A stretch of 64,000 bases of DNA from Pantoea rodasii (GTDB lineage: Bacteria; Pseudomonadota; Gammaproteobacteria; Enterobacterales; Enterobacteriaceae): positions 1-64,000 of the forward strand of contig NZ_MLFP01000002.1 in assembly GCF_002095465.1 (NCBI RefSeq), read 5' to 3'. Below are positions 49,062-58,665 of the stretch, piece after piece. Positions within the stretch are counted from its first letter, which is position 1. Each line of letters opens with the position of its first letter. Below the pieces are notes generated by a model that worked only from the letters and a program-made list of their open reading frames with translations, had not been told where the DNA came from and did no database searches. The position numbers and the translations under genes are program-made.

Positions 49062-49210
49062 TTTTTCTGATTTCTTGTTAATCGCGAACTTTTGGTCTAC
49101 CGCATTGTCAGGGGATTTTTGTGCTTTTCCCCTTGCTGCTGTTGGCTTCCTCGCTGACTCCTGATAAAACGTCCCTTCGCAGAATTTTTTTCTTACATGG
49201 CAGGAAAAAC

Positions 49211-50313
49211 ATGAGTGGCAGTCAGACCCTAGTGGTCAAATTGGGTACCAGCGTCCTCACCGGCGGTTCACGTCGGCTGAATCGTGCGCACATGGTGGAG
49301 CTGGTTCGTCAGTGTGCACAACTGCACGCGGCGGGCCATCGTATCGTTATCGTTACCTCTGGCGCGATTGCCGCCGGACGCGAACACCTGGGTTACCCCG
49401 AACTGCCGCCTACCATCGCCTCAAAGCAGCTGCTGGCTGCGGTGGGGCAGAGCCGTTTAATTCAGCTGTGGGAACAACTGTTCTCCATTCACGGCATTCA
49501 CATCGGGCAGATGTTGCTGACGCGTGCTGACATGGAAGATCGTGAACGCTTCCTCTACGCGCGTGACATGCTGCGAGCGCTGCTCGACAACCACATCGTG
49601 CCGGTGATTAACGAAAACGATGCGGTGGCGACCGCTGAGATTAAAGTGGGCGATAACGATAACCTGTCAGCGCTGGCGGCGATGCTTGGCGGTGCTGATA
49701 AACTGCTGCTGCTGACCGATCAGCAGGGCTTGTTCACTGCCGATCCGCGCACCAATCCAGAAGCTGAGCTGATCAGCGATGTGCACCAGATTGATGATGC
49801 ATTGCGCACGCTAGCCGGAGGCAGTGTCTCTGGCCTCGGCACGGGTGGCATGGCGACAAACTGCAGGCGGCGGATGTCGCGTGCCGCGCCGGTATTGACG
49901 TGATCATCGCGGCAGGCAGCCGGCCGGACGTGATCAGCGATGTGCTGTATGGCAAGCCGGTTGGCACCCGTTTTCACGCGCAGCAATCGCCGCTGGAAAA
50001 CCGCAAACGCTGGATCTTTGGCGCGCCACCGGCGGGCGAAATCGTCATTGATGATGGCGCACTGGCTGCTGTGCTGGAACGAGGCAGCTCACTGCTGCCG
50101 AAAGGCGTCCGCGAAGTGCAGGGTAATTTCTCGCGCGGTGAGGTGATCCGTATTCGTAGCCTTCAGGGCCGCGATATTGCCCACGGCGTGACGCGCTACA
50201 ACAGCGATGCCATGCGCATGATTGCCGGTCATCATAGCCAGGAAATCGGCGATATCCTCGGTTACGAGTATGGCCCGGTTGCGGTGCATCGTGACGACAT
50301 GATCGTCAGTTAA
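49211..50313 (+). CDS. proB: Glutamate 5-kinase, one base missing
   Basis: First enzyme of proline synthesis, feedback-inhibited by proline. The N-terminal kinase domain ([45 protein letters not shown]) is followed by a C-terminal PUA domain ([20 protein letters not shown]). The frame breaks at 49858-49860, where ACAAACTG needs one more A to read [19 protein letters not shown]. With it the protein has 367 residues, the exact E. coli length. Start 49211 ([12 protein letters not shown]) is the conserved one. It is followed by proA 10 bp downstream. Confidence 0.93.
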
Positions 50314-50323
50314 GGAGCAGATG

Positions 50324-51576
50324 ATGTTAGAAGAAATGGGTAAAGCGGCGCGCGCAGCGTCGTACAAACTGGCAGAACTCTCTACCGAACAAAAAATCAG
50401 GTGCTGCTGACCATCGCCGATCGTCTGGAAGCGGAAAGTGCCGATATTCTGGCGGCTAACGAGCAGGATCTGGCCGATGCGCGCCAAAACGGCATGAGTG
50501 CGGCCTTGCTGGATCGCCTGACGCTCAATCCGCAGCGTTTAAAAGGTATTGCTGATGATGTGCGTCAGGTATGTCGTCTGGCCGATCCGGTCGGACAACT
50601 GATCGATGGCGGCGTGCTGGACAGCGGCTTGCGTATTGAGCGCCGCCGTGTGCCATTGGGCGTGATTGGGGTAATTTATGAAGCCCGCCCTAATGTCACC
50701 GTCGATGTGGCTTCCCTGTGCCTGAAAACCGGCAATGCGGCGATTCTGCGCGGCGGCAAAGAAACGTATCGCACCAACGCGGCCACCGTTCGCGTGATTC
50801 AAAACGCGCTCAGCGAGCATGGTTTACCCAAGGGCGCTGTACAGGCGATTGAAAATCCGGACCGTGAGTTAGTTAACCAGTTGCTGAAGCTCGATCGCTA
50901 CGTCGATATGTTGATCCCGCGCGGCGGAGCAGGGCTGCATAAACTGTGCCGCGAAAACTCGACCATCCCGGTGATCACCGGCGGTATCGGCGTGTGCCAT
51001 CTCTATCTCGATGAAACTATGGAGATCGAACCGGCATTGGACGTGATTGTTAACGCCAAGAAGCAGCGCCCAAGCGCGTGTAATTCGCTGGAAACGCTGC
51101 TAATCCATCAGCATCAGGTCGAACGCTTTATTCCTGCCTTCCTGCAACGTATGGCGCAGGAAAATATCCCGCTGCACGCTGATGAAAATGTACTGGCGCT
51201 GCTGCAAAACGGCCCGGCCAGCGTAGTGGCGGTGAAAAATGAACAGTATGACGATGAGTGGTTATCTAACGATCTTAACGTCAAACTGGTGGCCGATCTG
51301 GATGAGGCGGTTGCCCACATCCGCGCGCACGGCACTCAGCACTCTGACGGCATCCTGACGCGCAGCATTGGTAACGCCAACCGCTTCGTCAATCAGGTTG
51401 ATTCCTCGGCGGTCTACGTGAACGCCAGTACCCGCTTCACTGACGGCGGCCAGTTTGGATTGGGCGCGGAAGTGGCGGTCAGCACCCAGAAGCTACATGC
51501 GCGAGGCCCAATGGGGCTGGAAGCGCTGACCACCTACAAGTGGATTGGCTGGGGTGACGACACGTTGCGCGGCTAA
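50324..51576 (+). CDS. proA: Gamma-glutamyl phosphate reductase, one base missing
   Basis: Second proline enzyme, an NADPH-dependent aldehyde-dehydrogenase-fold reductase. The start [19 protein letters not shown] lies after AAGGAG. The frame breaks at 50391-50396, six A where seven are needed to read [17 protein letters not shown]. With one A added the length is 417 residues, as in E. coli. The catalytic Cys lies in [14 protein letters not shown], and the C-terminus [17 protein letters not shown] is intact. Confidence 0.93.
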
Positions 51577-51626: not shown

Positions 51627-51927
51627 TTTCGATCCAATTATTTCCAGAGCTTTTTGATTTATTTCTGTCATCTATGGCGTCTCAGCGTCTTTTCGATCAT
51701 TTTTTCCTTGGGGTGCTGGTCTTAGCGCCACAGAACAATCCTGAAAACCCCTGTCAGAACAAGCTGTCGGGCATTCATTACTGGTTTCCACCCAGCCGAA
51801 GGGGATAATGATTATCCAACTTCATTGATAAAAGCGGTTGGGTAGTAAACTGACGGTAATATAAAATGAACTGGTAGCAAAAACGAAAATAACATTCAGT
51901 CTTTTACTGAAGGCAGATTATTAACTG
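51627..51927. other. Gap between proA and the accessory region
   Basis: About 300 bp without a supported gene. In E. coli a tRNA-Thr gene used for phage integration follows proA; no tRNA is seen here. The only structure found is the operator-like repeat TAAACTGACGGTAAT at 51846-51860, part of the set linked to the S24 repressor. Confidence 0.6.
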
Positions 51928-51935
51928 ATGGTTAA
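51846..51935. promoter_or_regulatory. Operator-like repeats before and over the start of the S24 repressor gene
   Basis: TAAACTGACGGTAAT (51846-51860) and the near-perfect palindrome TTAAC-TGATG-GTTAA (51921-51935). The second contains the ATG start codon at 51928 itself. Related copies lie after the gene at 52710 and 52733, so they look like binding sites of this repressor, with autoregulation at its own start. Confidence 0.65.
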
Positions 51936-52658
51936 AAAAGAGAGTACGAGACAAGCTTTTACTGCCAGGCTGATTGCCGCGTGTGATAGTGCGGGAATTG
52001 TCGGACATGGACGAAACAAACAGGTTGCTCAGGCACTGCAGCAAAGGGGATGCAGGATCTCAACACCGGGGGTCTGGAAATGGTTTAACGCTCAATCAAT
52101 TCCAGATGATAACAACATGCTGGCGTTAAGCCAGTTACTGGATGTGCGCGTCGAGTGGCTGCAATTCGGCATGGAAAAGCCCGATGCTGCGATTGGCCAT
52201 CCTGCGCTGAACGATTCAAAACACATGTTCCGTGTTGTCAGTCTGGATATTGGGCAGCGCAGCGTCCAGGGCATCGCCGCGCGTGATGATTTAGTTGAAA
52301 CCATTCAGGCGATTGAATACGGGCTGGATGAAGCACGCGTCCTGTTCAACGGCCGACCCGCCGAGAACATCCGCCTGATTGCGCTGAACAATGACTCGAT
52401 GGCGGGCACCTTTGCGCCGCGCGATCAGCTGTTTGTCGATATCAGCGTCCATCGTTTTGATGGCGATGGAATTTATCTGTTCACGCTGGACCAACAGCTG
52501 TATCTCAAACGCTTGCAGCTGCAACACAAAAGGTGGCGGTCATCTCTGACAACAAGCGTTATGAGACCTGGTATCTCACGCTGGATGAGGCGGCATCTTT
52601 GCAGGTGGTGGCGCGCGTCATCATGAGCCAGGCGCGTGATTACCAGATTTTAGGCTGA
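51928..52658 (+). CDS. CI-like S24 (LexA-type) repressor, one base missing
   Basis: Phage-type repressor of about 243 residues: an N-terminal HTH (NKQVAQALQQRGCRISTPGV, then WLQFGMEKPD as linker) and a C-terminal S24 peptidase-like domain with Ser in ALNNDSMAGTFAPRD and Lys in QLYLKRLQL, the Ser-Lys pair that drives RecA-stimulated self-cleavage. The frame breaks at 52528-52531; one added A restores KKVAVISDNKRYETWYLTLD and a normal end at 52658. Codon context and neighbours suggest phage origin. Control of the downstream lysis genes is inferred. Confidence 0.82.
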
Positions 52659-53072
52659 TCACATAACGCGCTAAGCAGTCAAAAAAATATTCTGGCTGAA
52701 ATCATAAATTTAACTGATGGTAAATAAAAAAATTAACTGTTGGTGTTTGCCAATGCATTAGAACCTGTTAATAATTTGAGCATGGAAGGACGACATCACT
52801 GCTCTCGGATGAGCCCGCTCTTAAACAATTGAGGCGCTGCACAAGCGCGATACCAACCACCCAAAGTCAGTGGATTTTGGGATGGGGTGGATGCGCATTT
52901 TGCAGCGTCGTCAGTTCTCCTCTGACTTCACTCTCCTCTGCTTATCCCTGGCCGCGAATGCAGCCGGGCGGGTCGATGACGAGTGTATGCAGTGGAACCC
53001 CGGACGCCTCGGCTTCAGCCGACATGCCGCGCCTGCCACCCCATCGCCAAAGACTCATTTACAGGAGGAGTT
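52659..53072. other. Regulatory gap before the lysis cassette
   Basis: About 410 bp with two operator-like repeats near its start and no gene that can be supported. Open frames exist at 52829-53161 and 52870-53184, but they have low-complexity Ser/Pro/Ala-rich products, overlap each other and run into the next gene, so they are not called. Confidence 0.5.
52710..52747. promoter_or_regulatory. Two further operator-like repeats downstream of the S24 repressor gene
   Basis: TTAACTGATGGTAAA (52710-52724) and TTAACTGTTGGTGTT (52733-52747), 23 bp apart. They share TTAACTG(A/T)TGGT with the repeat over the repressor start codon. Their place ahead of the lysis genes fits a repressed rightward promoter, though a clear -35/-10 was not identified. 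Confidence 0.65.
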
Positions 53073-53351
53073 ATGGCGATTATCCAGTATGGCAAGTCAG
53101 TCTTCACCGGGAATGCGCGCACCCGCCGTCACCGACGCCGCCAGTCCCTCAGCCGTCTTAAGTGCAGTATCGACAGCGCCTTAGGCCTTGAATCCGAAAA
53201 CGTCACCTTACGCACCGCTGAGCGCATCTGCCAGCGCCAGACACGCTCGCGTGCCGACTGTGCCGTCATGGCCCCCAAGCGAACGCAAACCGAGGGCGCG
53301 AGCTTCGATAACTGCTGTTTACCCCATGTCCATTTGTACGCCGTGCGCTAA
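53073..53351 (+). CDS. Unknown Arg- and Cys-rich 92-residue protein
   Basis: Not recognised. The start is well supported by AGGAGGAG just upstream. The N-terminal third is strongly basic (RTRRHRRRQSLSRLKCSID), and the protein has five Cys, with AERICQRQTRSRADCAVM and FDNCCLPHVH. No signal peptide or membrane segment is seen. The basic stretch and its position between repressor and lysis genes are compatible with a nucleic-acid-binding regulator such as a late-gene antiterminator, but this is only a positional guess. Confidence 0.65.
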   Translation: MAIIQYGKSVFTGNARTRRHRRRQSLSRLKCSIDSALGLESENVTLRTAERICQRQTRSRADCAVMAPKRTQTEGASFDNCCLPHVHLYAVR

Positions 53352-53535
53352 ATCTTTTGCTGCATTTTCCCAGTTTTTAAGCGGAACGCTTAATCATTGC
53401 TCACTAATTAGTCTCGCTTGAGCGTTGCGCGGTGCTCGCGTGGCGTCGGAGGGCGGACAGATCAGTGAGATTTATGTTTTTACCTTGTTTGCGCAGAGAT
53501 TTTCAGACTATTGCGCCCGTCAAAGAGGAATCGTT

Positions 53536-54003
53536 ATGAGCCAGATTATTGCCATTTTAAATTTTGAAGAGGGCTACCGTGAGGCGCCCTACCTTGATAC
53601 GCAGGGCTTTCCCACCGTGGCGGGCGGCATCCGCATCGGGCCGAAAGGTGCCTCACTCAGCAACTACATCTTCCAGGTCCCGCGACGCGTTGGCGATGTG
53701 TGGAAGCAGTGCATCGTTGAAAACAAGGTGCTGGAGATGAATCAGCGAGCCCTGGTTCAGCAGGCGCTGGGTAAGTGCAGTGAGGCGCGCTGTGATGTGC
53801 TGATCAGCATGGCGTATCAATTGGGGGTGGATGGCGTATCGATGTTTCGCGGCATGCTCAGCGCCATCACCCAGGGAGACTTCAACAGTGCGGCCAATGC
53901 CATGCTCGACAGCTTATGGGCACGACAAACGCCAGGGCGTGCGCGACGCCACGCGGAGGTGATGCGCAGCGGCACCTACGACATCTATCGGGGGCTGTTA
54001 TGA
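53536..54003 (+). CDS. Phage-type lysozyme (GH24 endolysin)
   Basis: Muramidase of 155 residues cleaving peptidoglycan. The T4-lysozyme-like catalytic set is visible as Glu12 (NFEEGYREAPY), Asp21 (LDTQGFPTVAGG) and Thr27; the C-terminal half has CDVLISMAYQLGVDGVSMF and RHAEVMRSGTYDIYRGLL. No signal peptide or SAR helix is evident, so release would need the holin. Start 53536 follows AGAGGA; an in-frame ATG 37 codons earlier is rejected. Its stop overlaps the holin start by four bases. Confidence 0.88.
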   Translation: MSQIIAILNFEEGYREAPYLDTQGFPTVAGGIRIGPKGASLSNYIFQVPRRVGDVWKQCIVENKVLEMNQRALVQQALGKCSEARCDVLISMAYQLGVDGVSMFRGMLSAITQGDFNSAANAMLDSLWARQTPGRARRHAEVMRSGTYDIYRGLL

Positions 54004-54350
54004 ACATGAAATGGCTGATGTTTGTCATCGCGGTGTTAGCAGCGGTGATTGTGTTGCTGCTGCTTCAGCGCTTCACCACGCTGGAGTTCGTGAAGCATGC
54101 GCGACTGTTATTCAAAACCTGGTCAGTGTGGCTGGCTTCATTGGGTTCGATGCTCAGTGCCTGGGCGCAATCCTTTCCGTCCTCGGCACTGGACGCCTGG
54201 AACGCCTTACCACAAGACGTCAAAGATGTGCTGCCCCACAACTACCTTGGCATGATTGGCGCCTTTATGGTGGCGATGGGCGTGCTGGCGCAGTTTGTAC
54301 GCCAGAAAACCCTGATTGAACAGCGTAAGACGCTGGAGGAGAAACCATGA
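54000..54350 (+). CDS. Putative phage holin
   Basis: Small membrane protein of 116 residues. An N-terminal hydrophobic helix (MFVIAVLAAVIVLLLLQ) is followed by an amphipathic stretch (LLFKTWSVWLASLGSMLSAW) and a second hydrophobic helix (YLGMIGAFMVAMGVLAQFV), with a charged tail (RQKTLIEQRKTLEEKP). It lies between lysozyme and Rz genes and overlaps both by four bases, the usual place of a holin. Identification rests on topology and position. Confidence 0.78.
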   Translation: MNMKWLMFVIAVLAAVIVLLLLQRFTTLEFVKHARLLFKTWSVWLASLGSMLSAWAQSFPSSALDAWNALPQDVKDVLPHNYLGMIGAFMVAMGVLAQFVRQKTLIEQRKTLEEKP

Positions 54351-54640
54351 CTTTTCTCACCACGCTGCTCGGTGGTAGCTGGCATTGGCTGGCTGCGCTG
54401 GGGGGCATTGTTGCCGCATTGGTTGCCAGCTACTTCGGTGGCAGAAAAATCGGCAAGGTGCAGCAGCAAGCAAAATCAGACGTTGAATCGGCAAACAAAG
54501 CGGCGGTGCAAGCCGTTGCGGTAAATCAGCAGCAGCAACAGCTGCGCGAGGAGGCCAAACGTGTGGAAGCCAATAATCTTAATCTTGATGACACTGCTGC
54601 TCGCGACAAGCTGCAGCAGTCGAAATACCACCAGCCCTGA
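54347..54640 (+). CDS. Rz-like inner-membrane spanin subunit
   Basis: Protein of 97 residues with one N-terminal transmembrane helix (WLAALGGIVAALVASYFGG) and a Gln/Ala-rich coiled coil (residues about 35-75). This is the standard shape of an i-spanin, which spans the periplasm to link inner and outer membranes at the last step of lysis. The start overlaps the holin stop by four bases. The Rz1 gene begins inside it in another frame. Confidence 0.8.
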   Translation: MTFLTTLLGGSWHWLAALGGIVAALVASYFGGRKIGKVQQQAKSDVESANKAAVQAVAVNQQQQQLREEAKRVEANNLNLDDTAARDKLQQSKYHQP

Positions 54641-54791
54641 ATCTCCCGTCGTTATCGACTCTGCTTGTACTCTTTTTTCCCCGATTTACACCCACGGCAA
54701 TGACGCCGAGCGCATGGACGTTCGCACCGTGCGCGCCATCAACAATCACAACGATCTTTGGGATCAGCACTGCGCCCCCTCGGCGCACTAA
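54561..54791 (+). CDS. Rz1-like outer-membrane lipoprotein spanin subunit
   Basis: Lipoprotein of 76 residues with a lipobox ending LLLATSC (Cys18). It starts inside the Rz-like gene in a different frame and ends 151 bases beyond it, a partially embedded Rz/Rz1 arrangement. The mature part contains three more Cys-type or acidic motifs (DSACTLF, HCAPSAH). It would pair with the i-spanin to fuse the membranes. Confidence 0.8.
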   Translation: MWKPIILILMTLLLATSCSSRNTTSPESPVVIDSACTLFSPIYTHGNDAERMDVRTVRAINNHNDLWDQHCAPSAH

Positions 54792-54841
54792 GGCTGTTCC
54801 TTCATCTGAATTGCAAACCTGAAAAGGCCGAGGAGGCTATG

Positions 54842-56587
54842 ATGATCGAAGTTAACTCTTATGCTGAACTGCGTACCACCGTCCCCAGCAAAAACGGCGA
54901 TTTGGCGTTTTTGCGTCGCTATAACGCCGACTCAACCTTCCACGGTGGCGGTGACTTCACCGGTTTTATCGGCACCACCACCGCCACGGATGATGGCGGG
55001 ACGCTGGCGGTGGGTAACGGTTTTTACTGGAAACGTGTGATTAACGATCCTTCCGACATCAACGTTTACCACTTTGGTGCGAAAGGGGATGGCTACGCCA
55101 ACGACACTGACTCCTTTACGCGCATGCTGGCATGGACCCAAACCTACAGCGGTAACATCAAAGATTTGCCGGTGCGTTTTCCGGGAGGGAAATTTTTAAT
55201 TAACCCGATCGACATCAGCGCCACAGACAATGCCTTCTTTGGCTTGCAGGGCGATGATGTTGAGCTGGGTTCCCTGCCGCGCACCACCATCATCTCGGAT
55301 AAAAGTGCCAACACGGTATTTAAGGTGAAGGCACGCCGTACTTCAATCCGAGGTATCGCGTGGAATGGCCAGGCGACGGCCGATATCACCACCAACAAAG
55401 GCACCATCACCGCGGCCATGTGCAGCAACGTGCAGCCGTTCTTCGAAAATACCTGTATCGAAGGCACCACGGTAAATATCTACTGTTTCCGCGCGCAGAA
55501 TAACGGCGGTACGGTGATCAAGGTGTTGGATACGCTGGACAGTAAATTTGACCAGATTTATACCCTGTACACCTATGCGCGCGTATTTGATGTCGGCTGG
55601 TCTAACTCACCGAATGGCGCGTGGGATCACTCCACGGCGATTGAGATTTGTAACTGTAATTTCCAGACCGGCTATGGCGATGCCACGCTTTACATGCCGC
55701 GCTGTACGCAAGGGATTTTGCGCAATGTGTGGATTGAGCACACGCGCAATCCGGGGGATTTGTCGGATGGCGGTTGGACCATTGATACGCTCAATATTGA
55801 GGACTGCGGCAACGCCTTCAATCTCAACAATGCGCGCGTGCTGATGCGCCAAATCAACCTGCAATCGGGCGCGAAGATCTCTAACGATTTGGCGGCAGGT
55901 CGGTGGTTATCTACCTTTGAATATGGCTATCGCCGTGACGAAAGCTATGGCAGCTTCCTGACCGGTTCACTGCGAGCTGGATATTACAGCGGCTACAAAA
56001 TTACCAACAACACGTCGACAGATAACTGGTATCGCCTGGGACAACTGTTCTTCCCCAATGCGAACCAGCAATGGGTGATGGAGTTTATTGGTAAGGCCGA
56101 TGCCACTCAGCCCACCGGCACGGCGGGCACCCCGGTTAACGTGGCCAGCAGCGGTAAAACCTGGATCAACCTGCAGCGGCTGGAAACAGTGTGGGCGGAT
56201 GCCTTTCATATGGGGCAGCCCGCCATCCTGGATATGCGTTACGGCCGTGTCGGCACCACTTATGCCGTGGTGTGGGTGAAGCTGAAAGCCAACAGTGGCG
56301 ACACCATGCTTAACCTGAAAAACACGGGCCCGACGCGTTTCGATTCCGGCTCCTGCTCGCTGTTCCAGTCCGATCTGTCGGTCGTTACCGATACCACCAC
56401 CATGGGCACCCTGAAGCCAGCCGCACGCTTCGGCATGCACAATGGTCTGGCAGGGATTGGGGCCAATGAGAAGGGGGTGCTGACGCTGGCAACGGCAGAC
56501 GGTACGCCAACCAACAAAACCACGCCAACAGGCTTTGTGCTGGTCAATATCAACGGTGTCGATCGTAAACTTCCCTATTACGATTGA
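54842..56587 (+). CDS. Tailspike-like right-handed beta-helix protein
   Basis: Protein of 581 residues. The N-terminal 75 residues (LAFLRRYNADSTFHGGGDF, DDGGTLAVGNGFYWKRV) form the adaptor-like part common in phage tail fibres and spikes. Then comes the pectate-lyase-superfamily opening INVYHFGAKGDGYANDTDSF, and a repetitive beta-helix. Such proteins bind and often depolymerise surface polysaccharide. No signal peptide is seen. Start 54842 lies five bases after AGGAGG; an ATG three bases earlier is too close. The substrate is unknown. Confidence 0.82.
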   Translation: MIEVNSYAELRTTVPSKNGDLAFLRRYNADSTFHGGGDFTGFIGTTTATDDGGTLAVGNGFYWKRVINDPSDINVYHFGAKGDGYANDTDSFTRMLAWTQTYSGNIKDLPVRFPGGKFLINPIDISATDNAFFGLQGDDVELGSLPRTTIISDKSANTVFKVKARRTSIRGIAWNGQATADITTNKGTITAAMCSNVQPFFENTCIEGTTVNIYCFRAQNNGGTVIKVLDTLDSKFDQIYTLYTYARVFDVGWSNSPNGAWDHSTAIEICNCNFQTGYGDATLYMPRCTQGILRNVWIEHTRNPGDLSDGGWTIDTLNIEDCGNAFNLNNARVLMRQINLQSGAKISNDLAAGRWLSTFEYGYRRDESYGSFLTGSLRAGYYSGYKITNNTSTDNWYRLGQLFFPNANQQWVMEFIGKADATQPTGTAGTPVNVASSGKTWINLQRLETVWADAFHMGQPAILDMRYGRVGTTYAVVWVKLKANSGDTMLNLKNTGPTRFDSGSCSLFQSDLSVVTDTTTMGTLKPAARFGMHNGLAGIGANEKGVLTLATADGTPTNKTTPTGFVLVNINGVDRKLPYYD

Positions 56588-56602
56588 GGTTCAGCACATT
56601 TT

Positions 56603-56628
56603 GGCGAGGCTTCGGCCTCGCCTTTTTT
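56603..56628 (+). terminator. Terminator of the lysis-tailspike operon
   Basis: Perfect 8-bp stem GGCGAGGC / GCCTCGCC with a TTCG tetraloop, followed by TTTTTT, 15 bp after the tailspike stop. It closes the cassette as one transcription unit. Confidence 0.9.
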
Positions 56629-56724: not shown

Positions 56725-58632
56725 TTACCCCTGCAATAAGGTCAGCACCTGTTGCGGCTGCAGGTTGGCTTTAGCCAGCACGGAAGAACTGGCTTGCTGC
56801 ACAATCTGTGCCCGGGTCAGCGCGGAAACCTCCGCCGCATAATCTGCATCTTCAATACGTGAGCGAGCACTTGCCAGGTTGGTCGTTGCACCACTTTGTA
56901 AGCTTTGCGCCGAACTCAACCGGTTTGCCGCTGCACCTAACTCACTGCGCTGGCTATCAACGCGTGCAATCGCTCTATCCAGTGTCGCCAGTGGATCATC
57001 AGGATGCTTCAGGCGGATCTCGTCACCCACTTCTTTTACGCTGGTGGTGGTGAGATTAGTTGAGGTATCCGTAACCGAGGACACATTGGCCATATAGTAG
57101 ATTTGAACATCACCAACGCCGCGTAACGTCTTCAGCATCAAGGCGTTCGGGGCACTGTCTTCCGTCACAAAGGTGGCGGTTTTGCTCTCACGCCCGTCAG
57201 GCACCCCCATGTAGTAATTGCCGTCACTGTCCAGCCGCAAAACGTCATTGCTGCTGACGCCCTGGGCATCGGTATACCTGACATCGACATTGGCGGGATC
57301 CAGCGTGATGTATGAAGTACCGGTGACGCTGGTGACGTCATTAAAACTGTTGATGCTGCTGCTGCTACTGGTGGCTTTAACACTCAGGCTAACGTCGTTG
57401 CCATCCGAGGTGGTGGTCACCGTGGCGTTGTAATATTGGTAGTTGCCGCCGCCGCTATCCACTTCCATCACATATTGTCCGCCTGTGGTGCGGAGTAAGC
57501 GTGCATCGCTGCTGGCGACGGCGTTGTTTAAGCCATCGGTAAAACTCAGGGTCGCACTACTGGTGGTGACGGTTGGCGTGGTGTTCACCGCGGTTGGCAG
57601 TGTGGCGAAATCACCGTCCGTTTTCACAGGATCGGTGGTCATTGTCGCCGTAATCGCGCCACTGGAGCCGTAACTTATAGTGGCAGGATAATAATTATCA
57701 TCCTGTTCAATATAATACTGGCCACTGTCTTCAGTCAGCGTTGGGGCGGGCGTGTTGCTCAACGCGGTGCCAGTATTATCCTGGTAGTTAATCGAGGTCA
57801 TGCTGCGGGAAGCAATGGTCTCCACCGGGCTGTAAAGCGGCACGCTGGTGCTTCTACTGATTAAAACATTACCCGCCGCTGAAGAGGTATCCCAGCGGGC
57901 GCTGACACTGGCCAGATAATAGGTCGGCTTGCCATCGCTGCCGGTGGTTTGAATAAATTGCTGACCATTGTTACTACTTTGCACCAGCTGTGGCGAGTCC
58001 GCTGCAGGAGAGTAGTTCACGGTAATGGCCGGACTGCTCAATGACATGTTCAGCGCCAAACCGGTCAGGCTCGGAACCGCCGTAACCTTGCCACTGATAC
58101 CGCTGATCACGAAGTCATCCAGACCTAACTCACTGACGCTGAATCCGCTCGATAAATCGACGCCAATCTTTTGATTATCATTGGCACCCACCTGAATTCC
58201 CACGCGACCCGCGCTGCCATCCAGAAGTTTTAGCCCGTTAAAGCTCGAACTGCTGTTGAGGCGATTAATCTCTTTGAGATTCAGGTTTATCTCCGCCTGA
58301 ATGGAATCGGTATCTTCCTGAGAGTTGGTGCCGTTCAACCCTTGCACCGTTAGCTGACGGATACGCTGCAAGCGATTGTTGACTTCATCCAGCGCGCTGC
58401 TGGCCGTATCTACCATCGATAAACCATCGCCGGTGTTGCGCTGCGCCTGCGCCAGGCCACTCTGCTGGCTGGTAAAACGGTTTGCTATCGCCTGGCCTGC
58501 TGCATCATCACGGGCACTGTTGATGCGCATCCCTGAGGACAGGCGCTCAATCGCCACGCTCAGAGCGGAACCATTTTGGTTCGACTGCTTCGTCGCGATC
58601 ATCGCAGAAACGTTGGTTTGAAGGCTGATCAT
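56725..58632 (-). CDS. fliC: Flagellin with an enlarged variable region
   Basis: Flagellar filament protein of 635 residues. The conserved D0/D1 ends are clear: MISLQTNVSAMIATKQSN, ERLSSGMRINSARDDAAGQ at the N-terminus, and SRIEDADYAAEVSALTRAQI with a final VLTLLQG at the C-terminus. The central 350 or so residues are Ser/Thr-rich beta-type sequence with repeated G-x-YY units. Start 58632 is the conserved Met; a TTG six codons upstream is rejected. No other flagellar gene (fliD, fliS, fljA) is next to it. A sigma-28 promoter lies upstream. Confidence 0.93.
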   Translation of the reverse strand: MISLQTNVSAMIATKQSNQNGSALSVAIERLSSGMRINSARDDAAGQAIANRFTSQQSGLAQAQRNTGDGLSMVDTASSALDEVNNRLQRIRQLTVQGLNGTNSQEDTDSIQAEINLNLKEINRLNSSSSFNGLKLLDGSAGRVGIQVGANDNQKIGVDLSSGFSVSELGLDDFVISGISGKVTAVPSLTGLALNMSLSSPAITVNYSPAADSPQLVQSSNNGQQFIQTTGSDGKPTYYLASVSARWDTSSAAGNVLISRSTSVPLYSPVETIASRSMTSINYQDNTGTALSNTPAPTLTEDSGQYYIEQDDNYYPATISYGSSGAITATMTTDPVKTDGDFATLPTAVNTTPTVTTSSATLSFTDGLNNAVASSDARLLRTTGGQYVMEVDSGGGNYQYYNATVTTTSDGNDVSLSVKATSSSSSINSFNDVTSVTGTSYITLDPANVDVRYTDAQGVSSNDVLRLDSDGNYYMGVPDGRESKTATFVTEDSAPNALMLKTLRGVGDVQIYYMANVSSVTDTSTNLTTTSVKEVGDEIRLKHPDDPLATLDRAIARVDSQRSELGAAANRLSSAQSLQSGATTNLASARSRIEDADYAAEVSALTRAQIVQQASSSVLAKANLQPQQVLTLLQG

Positions 58633-58665
58633 CGGGGTTCTCAAGGCCAAATTGCACTGTATGCA

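Follow-up and report, generated by a model that had tools for sequence, protein, structure and literature searches.

The stretch of DNA analysed here, called the window, comprises 64,000 nucleotides of Pantoea rodasii (contig NZ_MLFP01000002.1, positions 1 to 64,000) and contains, between proA and the flagellin gene fliC, a cassette of about 4.7 kb formed by phage-type genes. These are an S24/CI-type repressor, an N-type antitermination protein, a T4-type lysozyme, a holin, the spanins Rz and Rz1 and a beta-helix tailspike, followed by an intrinsic terminator (Table 1). The list of open reading frames (ORFs) of the window, judged by eye, holds no integrase, terminase or capsid gene and no tail gene besides the spike, which is also the sole virion-type gene among the seven cassette proteins scanned; integrase, capsid, tail-tube and terminase genes were not recognised between proA and fliC. 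The initial annotation, made from the sequence of the window, had described a lysis cassette with these limits. Pfam and PHROGs matches confirmed the genes that it named in their places, as well as the lysozyme/holin and holin/Rz overlaps, the terminator after the spike and the lack of recognisable virion, integrase and terminase genes from proA to fliC. The protein that it had listed as merely regulator-like is an N-family antiterminator.

The lysis genes are full length, as had been claimed; the repressor of the window is broken by a frame shift near residue 202 as assembled, its relatives having mostly 243 residues. The repressor is unbroken in 51 of the 53 other copies at the proA site. 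One frame break each was also identified in proB and proA (49121-51576, by comparison with a relative) and, because these lie in the same assembly, the break is probably a sequence or assembly error and real biology is disfavoured.

Table 1. Features of the cassette and of its control region in the window; counts refer to the 55 control regions compared in the text
Feature	Position	Strand	Evidence
Operator-like site TTAACnnnnnGTTAA, overlapping the repressor start	51921..51935	.	pattern in 54/55 cassettes
S24/CI-type repressor	51928..52626	+	Pfam Peptidase_S24 9e-8; PHROG repressor 2.5e-21
Operator-like site 1, TTTAACnnnnnGTAAAT	52709..52725	.	47/55
Operator-like site 2, AATTAACnnnnnGTG	52731..52745	.	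52/55
pL-like promoter-like site TTGCCA-17-AATAAT	52747..52775	+	10/12 consensus matches, by itself not above chance; GTTAATAATTT in 55/55
boxA of nut site, CGCTCTTAAACA	52816..52827	+	51/55
boxB hairpin of nut site, GCGCTGCACAAGCGC	52834..52848	+	54/55; stem equals P22 nutL stem
5' arm of predicted N-leader stem	52874..52890	+	consensus fold; P22 stem predicted at same position
3' arm of predicted N-leader stem	53036..53053	+	consensus fold; probability 0.17 in the window's sequence
N-type antitermination protein, 92 aa, arginine-rich motif GNARTRRHRRRQ	53073..53351	+	PF25694 3.6e-20 and phrog_271 (both made on the longer ORF 52983-53351); P22 N alignment
Lysozyme, T4-type	53536..54003	+	PF00959 1e-4, barely above the curated cut-off
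Holin	54000..54350	+	phrog_1356 9e-20; DUF7940
i-spanin Rz	54347..54640	+	phrog_1026; no Pfam match
o-spanin Rz1, lipoprotein, other frame, overlaps Rz	54561..54791	+	phrog_1275
Beta-helix tailspike / exopolysaccharide depolymerase, 582 aa	54839..56587	+	phrog_4250 'EPS depolymerase' 1e-166; WceF 6tgf
Intrinsic terminator	56603..56622	+	terminator prediction

Conservation at the proA site and selection

A search of relatives for the block at proA had been proposed in the initial annotation. The lysozyme was identified in 54 of 61 Pantoea genomes (E<=1e-10), at the proA site in all 54, which exceeds chance, and second copies are scattered elsewhere in 10 of the 61. All 53 other proA loci were fetched and compared, which with the window makes 54. 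The order proA, repressor, N, lysozyme and holin is shared by 54 of 54; the spike comes next in 53, nearly always behind Rz and Rz1. Measured from the start of proA to a point 120 bases beyond the spike, the span is 6.0-6.7 kb in 52 of the 54 (L113 is longer, L115 shorter), so that there is no room for virion or tail genes at this site. Of the 54 cassettes, 44 have full-length copies of all seven genes. Two genomes outside Pantoea have the same block behind proA, one from another genus (G079, locus L091) and one from the Erwinia group (L172). In L113 (G456) about 1.3 kb of additional sequence lies between N and the lysozyme, the cassette being otherwise intact.

All seven cassette genes are under purifying selection. 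Median ratios of nonsynonymous to synonymous substitution (dN/dS) were 0.051 for the repressor, 0.107 for the spike, 0.115 for N, 0.120 for the lysozyme and 0.159 for the holin, with 0.088 for proA; those of Rz (0.188) and Rz1 (0.266) are biased by the overlap of the two genes. They were calculated pairwise by the Nei-Gojobori method (0.2<dS<1.2) on the 44 intact cassettes plus the window, its repressor excluded. The lysozyme triad E/D/T, which we take to be E12/D21/T27, is kept in 45 of 45, and so is the lipobox cysteine of Rz1. Random truncation, relaxed selection and patchy occurrence, the marks of a decaying remnant, were not found at the proA site. The initial annotation had named complete prophages in sister strains, with frequent random truncation, as the result that would speak against it; the opposite was observed, viral contigs being checked as well. 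Synteny and dN/dS support its notion of a virion-free, selected lysis cassette with a putative depolymerase spike as last gene. The block is far more conserved than is visible from the window, and that reading had missed the genus-wide conservation, the N/nut control and the parallel cassettes.

The lysozyme is missing from 7 of the 61 genomes, two of them without a proA match. The five that carry proA group with G033 in a single clade within the genus (proA tree, support 1.0). A tRNA-Thr lies 0.8-1.1 kb behind proA in four of them, the fifth stretch being short, and DNA comparison found no cassette sequence in the five stretches. Given the nested clade, the tRNA-Thr near proA and the missing cassette DNA, loss is the likeliest explanation. 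In G033 (L045) the cassette comprises repressor, N, lysozyme and holin, with tRNA-Thr after the holin; beyond it lies a spike of 34% identity, which clusters with the spike of Pantoea phage Kyle (support 0.888). Replacement of the spike inside this cassette was rejected, since the tRNA-Thr between holin and spike places the spike outside. The L045 repressor is 77% identical, as against 92% for proA.

Control region and repressor

The control region was compared in 55 sequences, the 54 Pantoea cassettes and L091. Mean pairwise identity is 0.82-0.90 at the operators and promoter and up to 0.99 at the nut site, as against 0.37-0.70 outside these islands, and the ribosome-binding site of N is kept in 54 of the 55. 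The operator-like sites over the pL-like promoter were recognised from sequence patterns and conservation, and the site at the repressor start would serve auto-control. N and a boxA/boxB nut site, which define early control of the lambdoid or P22 type, are both present. Between nut and N the consensus fold of 53 of the 55 leaders (L085, without an exact boxB, and the short L045 were left out) contains a long stem, each pair of which is kept in 49-53 of the 53. In phage lambda the translation of N is controlled by a stem at this place that RNase III cuts. A short peptide encoded ahead of N was rejected: the conserved stretch has frame-changing gaps between species, which makes RNA the better explanation.

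Phage P22 (NC_002371) shares with the cassette the order and orientation of repressor, operators/promoter, nutL and N. Its boxB GCGCTGACAAAGCGC has the same stem as GCGCTGCACAAGCGC, its N aligns with the cassette N across the arginine-rich motif, and its predicted leader stem stands at the same position with another sequence, nine of the P22 pairs having a probability of at least 0.97. Unlike in P22, the cassette N directly precedes the lysis genes and the spike, with no cro, integrase, replication or virion genes recognised, and the repressor is nearer to CI of the HK022 type. The nearest phage homologues of the latter are those of Citrobacter phage Omnitron (43%) and HK022 CI (37%).

The Ser-Lys pair of the repressor, 37 residues apart, is well kept in the 44 intact cassettes, of which 43 have the Ser and all have the Lys; Ala replaces Ser in four of the 53 repressors read (L050, L082, L085 and L091). 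At the position before the glycine of the expected cleavage site (Ala/Cys-Gly for RecA-stimulated self-cleavage) various residues stand (A, Q, S, H, E, C and others), and some copies have no such glycine. A LexA box between repressor and N was set aside; a pattern resembling one is present in 5 of 55. At site B, a parallel cassette described below, the only repressor read (L088) has no visible dyad and no Pfam S24 domain; it gives weak UmuD-like matches in PHROGs. SOS induction of the cassette, the DNA-damage trigger that the initial annotation had suggested as possible, is weakly supported; it would be possible in some lineages and unlikely as a common rule. An antirepressor, or a signal from the host, would be an equally likely trigger.

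Spike relatives, parallel cassettes and origin

Among solved structures the spike has its best relative in WceF of P. stewartii (6tgf, E 7e-101); the alignment spans WceF residues 169-732 and leaves out the Tat (twin-arginine translocation) signal and the head of WceF. WceF is a stewartan glycosidase and its loss lengthens stewartan, as stated in the portion of PMC7949094 drawn on here. From this homology the spike is probably a depolymerase with a stewartan-like substrate. The WceF/AmsF glycosidases belong to the same beta-helix family; WceF has a Tat signal and a head domain and sits in the exopolysaccharide (EPS) cluster, whereas the cassette spike aligns without either of these and sits behind lysis genes at proA. 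No export signal was recognised on the spike by eye, and it would therefore need lysis to leave the cell. The genome of the window also encodes a WceF homologue of 736 residues with a Tat-like start (by eye), and such homologues occur in 58 of the 61 genomes of the genus, five of them partial, including the five cassette-free genomes with proA. An EPS system is therefore probably present, and these species probably own an exported EPS enzyme besides that of the cassette. A third spike paralogue (31%) was identified in the window genome (L003/L194, G000 C3:104717-106480). Relatives of the spike occur in 122 phage records, 118 of them of Erwinia or Pantoea phages.

Outside Pantoea a spike match (E<=1e-120) was identified in 25 of 37 Erwinia-group genomes, one being partial with stops, and a wider family sample gave matches at E<=1e-20 in 14 of 392 genomes, WceF-type matches included. 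Forty regions were read: 37 of the 38 Erwinia-group places and three from two further genera (G079 and G229). Site B comprises 22 regions beside a GGDEF gene, with a CheW/response-regulator gene within reach in 14. All 22 have a Q antiterminator match (PF06530, checked on one member) and a full-length spike, accompanied by an outward-facing repressor in 18, a lysozyme in 18, of 155 residues in every case, and a holin in 17. L165, L167, L168 and L170, of Erwinia-group genomes of ~3.8-4.1 Mb, contain Q and a full-length spike with no lysozyme or holin match; here lysis was apparently lost and the depolymerase kept. Site C comprises 10 regions beside dinI and ldcA, seven of them with a different S24 repressor and a lysozyme, full length in six of the seven. 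Two further holin-family genes were identified in 8 of the 10 (L087 6907-7648: phrog_198 and phrog_217); in L089, L151 and L152 they directly precede the spike and there is no lysozyme match. At both sites dN/dS is 0.07-0.24, several genes having few usable pairs.

The remaining regions are L172 (the proA-site cassette), L176-L179 (a fourth type), L094 with repressor and spike, L175 with the spike only, and L092, where a repressor match is joined by other genes of lysis type (by eye). L176, with L189 (G472), lies near pdxJ and contains repressor, Q-like gene, holin, endolysin and an EPS-depolymerase spike 55% identical to the site-C spike, followed by sheath, tape-measure, baseplate and fibre genes; neither capsid nor terminase was found among ten proteins scanned. 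By its gene content this locus is a tailocin-like cluster. The proA site has no room for tailocin genes and contains none, and the protein scans of L087 and L088 gave none. In the spike tree types B (22), C (11, including L094) and D (5, including L092) are each monophyletic, and A, the proA-site type (47), is monophyletic except for L175, which falls inside; the L045 spike was left out of this test.

Membership of the cassette in a complete phage was set aside after searches of IMG/VR contigs, phages and plasmids. Four IMG/VR contigs match the spike and five the repressor. The four spike contigs are site-B or site-C cassettes, L180 having phage tail-like ORFs upstream as well (by eye). Two of the repressor contigs were read: L184, which is a proA cassette beside genes that are presumably transposable-phage-like, and L187, with a 44% repressor, holin and Rz1 matches that are distant, and no match to the spike; L185, L186 and L188 (42-44%) are known by the repressor match alone. 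Phage records gave no match to N at E 1e-3, and plasmids no match to the block by megablast.

Upstream of the cassette are a PhoE/OmpF/OmpC-type porin and then proB and proA (proA: TIGR00407; proB of a relative: TIGR01027). Downstream, on the opposite strand, the flagellin gene (56725-58650) encodes 641 residues with a long stretch separating the N- and C-terminal domains, and is followed by what we take to be glycosyltransferase- and flippase-like genes. The DNA behind the cassette varies from species to species. Of the 53 other loci, 24 have a tRNA-Thr(CGT) shortly after the spike, L045 has it between holin and spike, and 28 show none in the stretch fetched; it lies behind the cassette in L091 and is not in the window. 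These positions suggest that the original site probably lay in the interval from proA to the tRNA, later insertions having come behind the cassette. The location adjoining proA and tRNA-Thr(CGT) is P22-like; P22 uses thrW as its integration site, and its tailspike gene lies at one end of the prophage map. The simplest origin would be the loss, from a P22-like prophage, of all that lay between N and the lysis genes and between these and the spike, so that the early operon came to drive lysis. No intermediates were seen among the loci read.

Proposed function and comparison with known systems

The cassette is best read, with a probability of about 0.6, as the relic of a domesticated lambdoid prophage of the P22 type, kept by selection as a device that releases a depolymerase through cell lysis. 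The repressor would keep the pL-like promoter shut and be inactivated in some cells. Transcription would then cross the nut site and the N leader, and N, once made, would load onto RNA polymerase, which would read through lysozyme, holin, spanins and spike as one unit up to the terminator. The spike would build up in the cytoplasm until holin, lysozyme and spanins open the cell and free it with the cell contents, and the freed spike would trim the stewartan- or amylovoran-like EPS of the surrounding colony. A few cells would die and their kin would gain a loosened matrix.

Several observations weigh against this reading. A broken, missing or off-length gene was identified in 10 of the 54 cassettes: the repressor in the window, the spike in L042 and L050, spike and repressor in L120, the lysozyme in L084, L085 and L086 (further genes too in L084 and L086), no Rz/Rz1 match in L045 and L077, and L115, of a 2.9-Mb genome in which proA is also broken. 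Spike and lysis are separable, the G033 cassette stopping at the holin, four site-B regions keeping only Q and spike with no lysozyme match, and three site-C regions having the two further holins and the spike, again with no lysozyme match. The spikes of phages phiEaP8 and Yoloswag share the same short N-terminus and start at the same place, so that the lack of a virion anchor, which was considered as proof of free release, had to be rejected as such. In the control region the consensus scan gave promoters and terminators not above chance (2 against 3.3 expected and 9 against 5.8), and no intrinsic terminator was predicted between N and lysozyme in the window. The leader stem exceeds a probability of 0.5 in 35 of 47 single-sequence folds, with 0.17 for the window, whose best fold pairs differently (z -2.1); its exact arms are missing in 8 of the 55, and its pairs hardly vary within the genus and therefore give little information on covariation.

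That the cassette is an ordinary prophage remnant without selected function is very improbable. Every part is of phage descent and ten copies have a faulty gene, some perhaps through assembly errors, but the low dN/dS, the 44 intact copies, the conserved non-coding control, the fixed site in 54 of 61 genomes and the parallel cassettes argue against it. Somewhat less improbable, although still doubtful, is a lysis helper for another cargo, a tailocin or other large protein supplied in trans, the spike merely aiding passage through the matrix. One Erwinia-group genome does have, near pdxJ, a related spike in a tailocin-like cluster of lysis and contractile-tail genes; against this, the spike is the usual last gene at sites A-C and no tail genes were recognised nearby in the loci read. 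We give equally little credit to export from living cells that is wholly or mainly non-lytic, with holin and lysozyme as a type 10 path. Such a path is claimed for the Salmonella type 10 secretion system (T10SS) in the part of PMC13284979 available to us, whereas the Yersinia and Serratia systems act via lysis according to the sections of PMC10847048 used; the complete spanin pair kept in most copies also points to full lysis.

The alternative with the best claim, unlikely as it is, is phage defence by altruistic lysis. Here an infecting phage would inactivate the repressor through an antirepressor, or supply antitermination; lysis would come early and the depolymerase would strip the EPS receptor, protecting kin. 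Many Erwinia and Pantoea phages use exopolysaccharide as first receptor. The conserved phage-type immunity and N/nut control, the repressors that differ between sites and the predominance of Erwinia and Pantoea phages (118 of 122) among records with a spike relative are consistent with it, but some lineages keep the spike without a lysozyme match.

There are about even odds that the cassettes form a hitherto undescribed class of host-owned devices of Erwiniaceae, fixed at three or more loci with different regulators and kept in tens of species, in which a lambda/P22 switch (repressor, operators, nut and N, or elsewhere repressor and Q) was rewired to lysis and a matrix depolymerase; a few cells would burst on cue and dissolve the shared EPS, for biofilm dispersal or anti-phage receptor stripping. 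No description of the cassette was found among the matches listed from the open-licence PMC literature, subscription papers being outside the scope of the search. A 2012 paper reportedly treats "silent" lysozyme genes of Erwinia chromosomes. If the reading is true, a whole genus retains a phage early switch, down to the nut site and the N leader, as a program of altruistic lysis, and type 10-like secretion gains a polysaccharide-degrading cargo. This would be relevant to biofilm biology, to phage sensitivity and to the fate of domesticated prophages. Isolates of Pantoea and Erwinia come from plants, insects and the clinic, and EPS is important to them.

Among known systems, the gene transfer agent RcGTA has a detachable tailspike, TspA, that degrades biofilm, as excerpts of PMC13420450 describe. 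It is likewise a domesticated phage element, and the cells that lyse put a biofilm-degrading tailspike to use; in that account TspA binds loosely to the particles, whereas no particle genes were recognised in the cassette. The Lrp-controlled lysozyme and holin of P. stewartii were taken as a different system by their plasmid location, as given in the part of PMC12285263 consulted. The T10SS of Serratia (ChiWXYZ) and Yersinia entomophaga (YenLC) comprises a chromosomal holin, endolysin and spanin pair outside a prophage and frees large proteins, toxins among them, by lysing a subpopulation of cells (PMC10847048, in the passages drawn on). The cassette is similar in its genes: holin, peptidoglycan hydrolase and spanins form one predicted operon, judged from gene order and overlaps, which at the proA site lies outside a prophage and without virion genes. 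It differs in its endolysin, a T4-type lysozyme, in its cargo, a depolymerase-type spike inside the same gene block, and in its control by a phage repressor and N antitermination with operators and nut, in place of the regulators ChiR and RoeA named in those passages. By analogy of the genes, the cassette may work like a T10SS with a new cargo and a new control.

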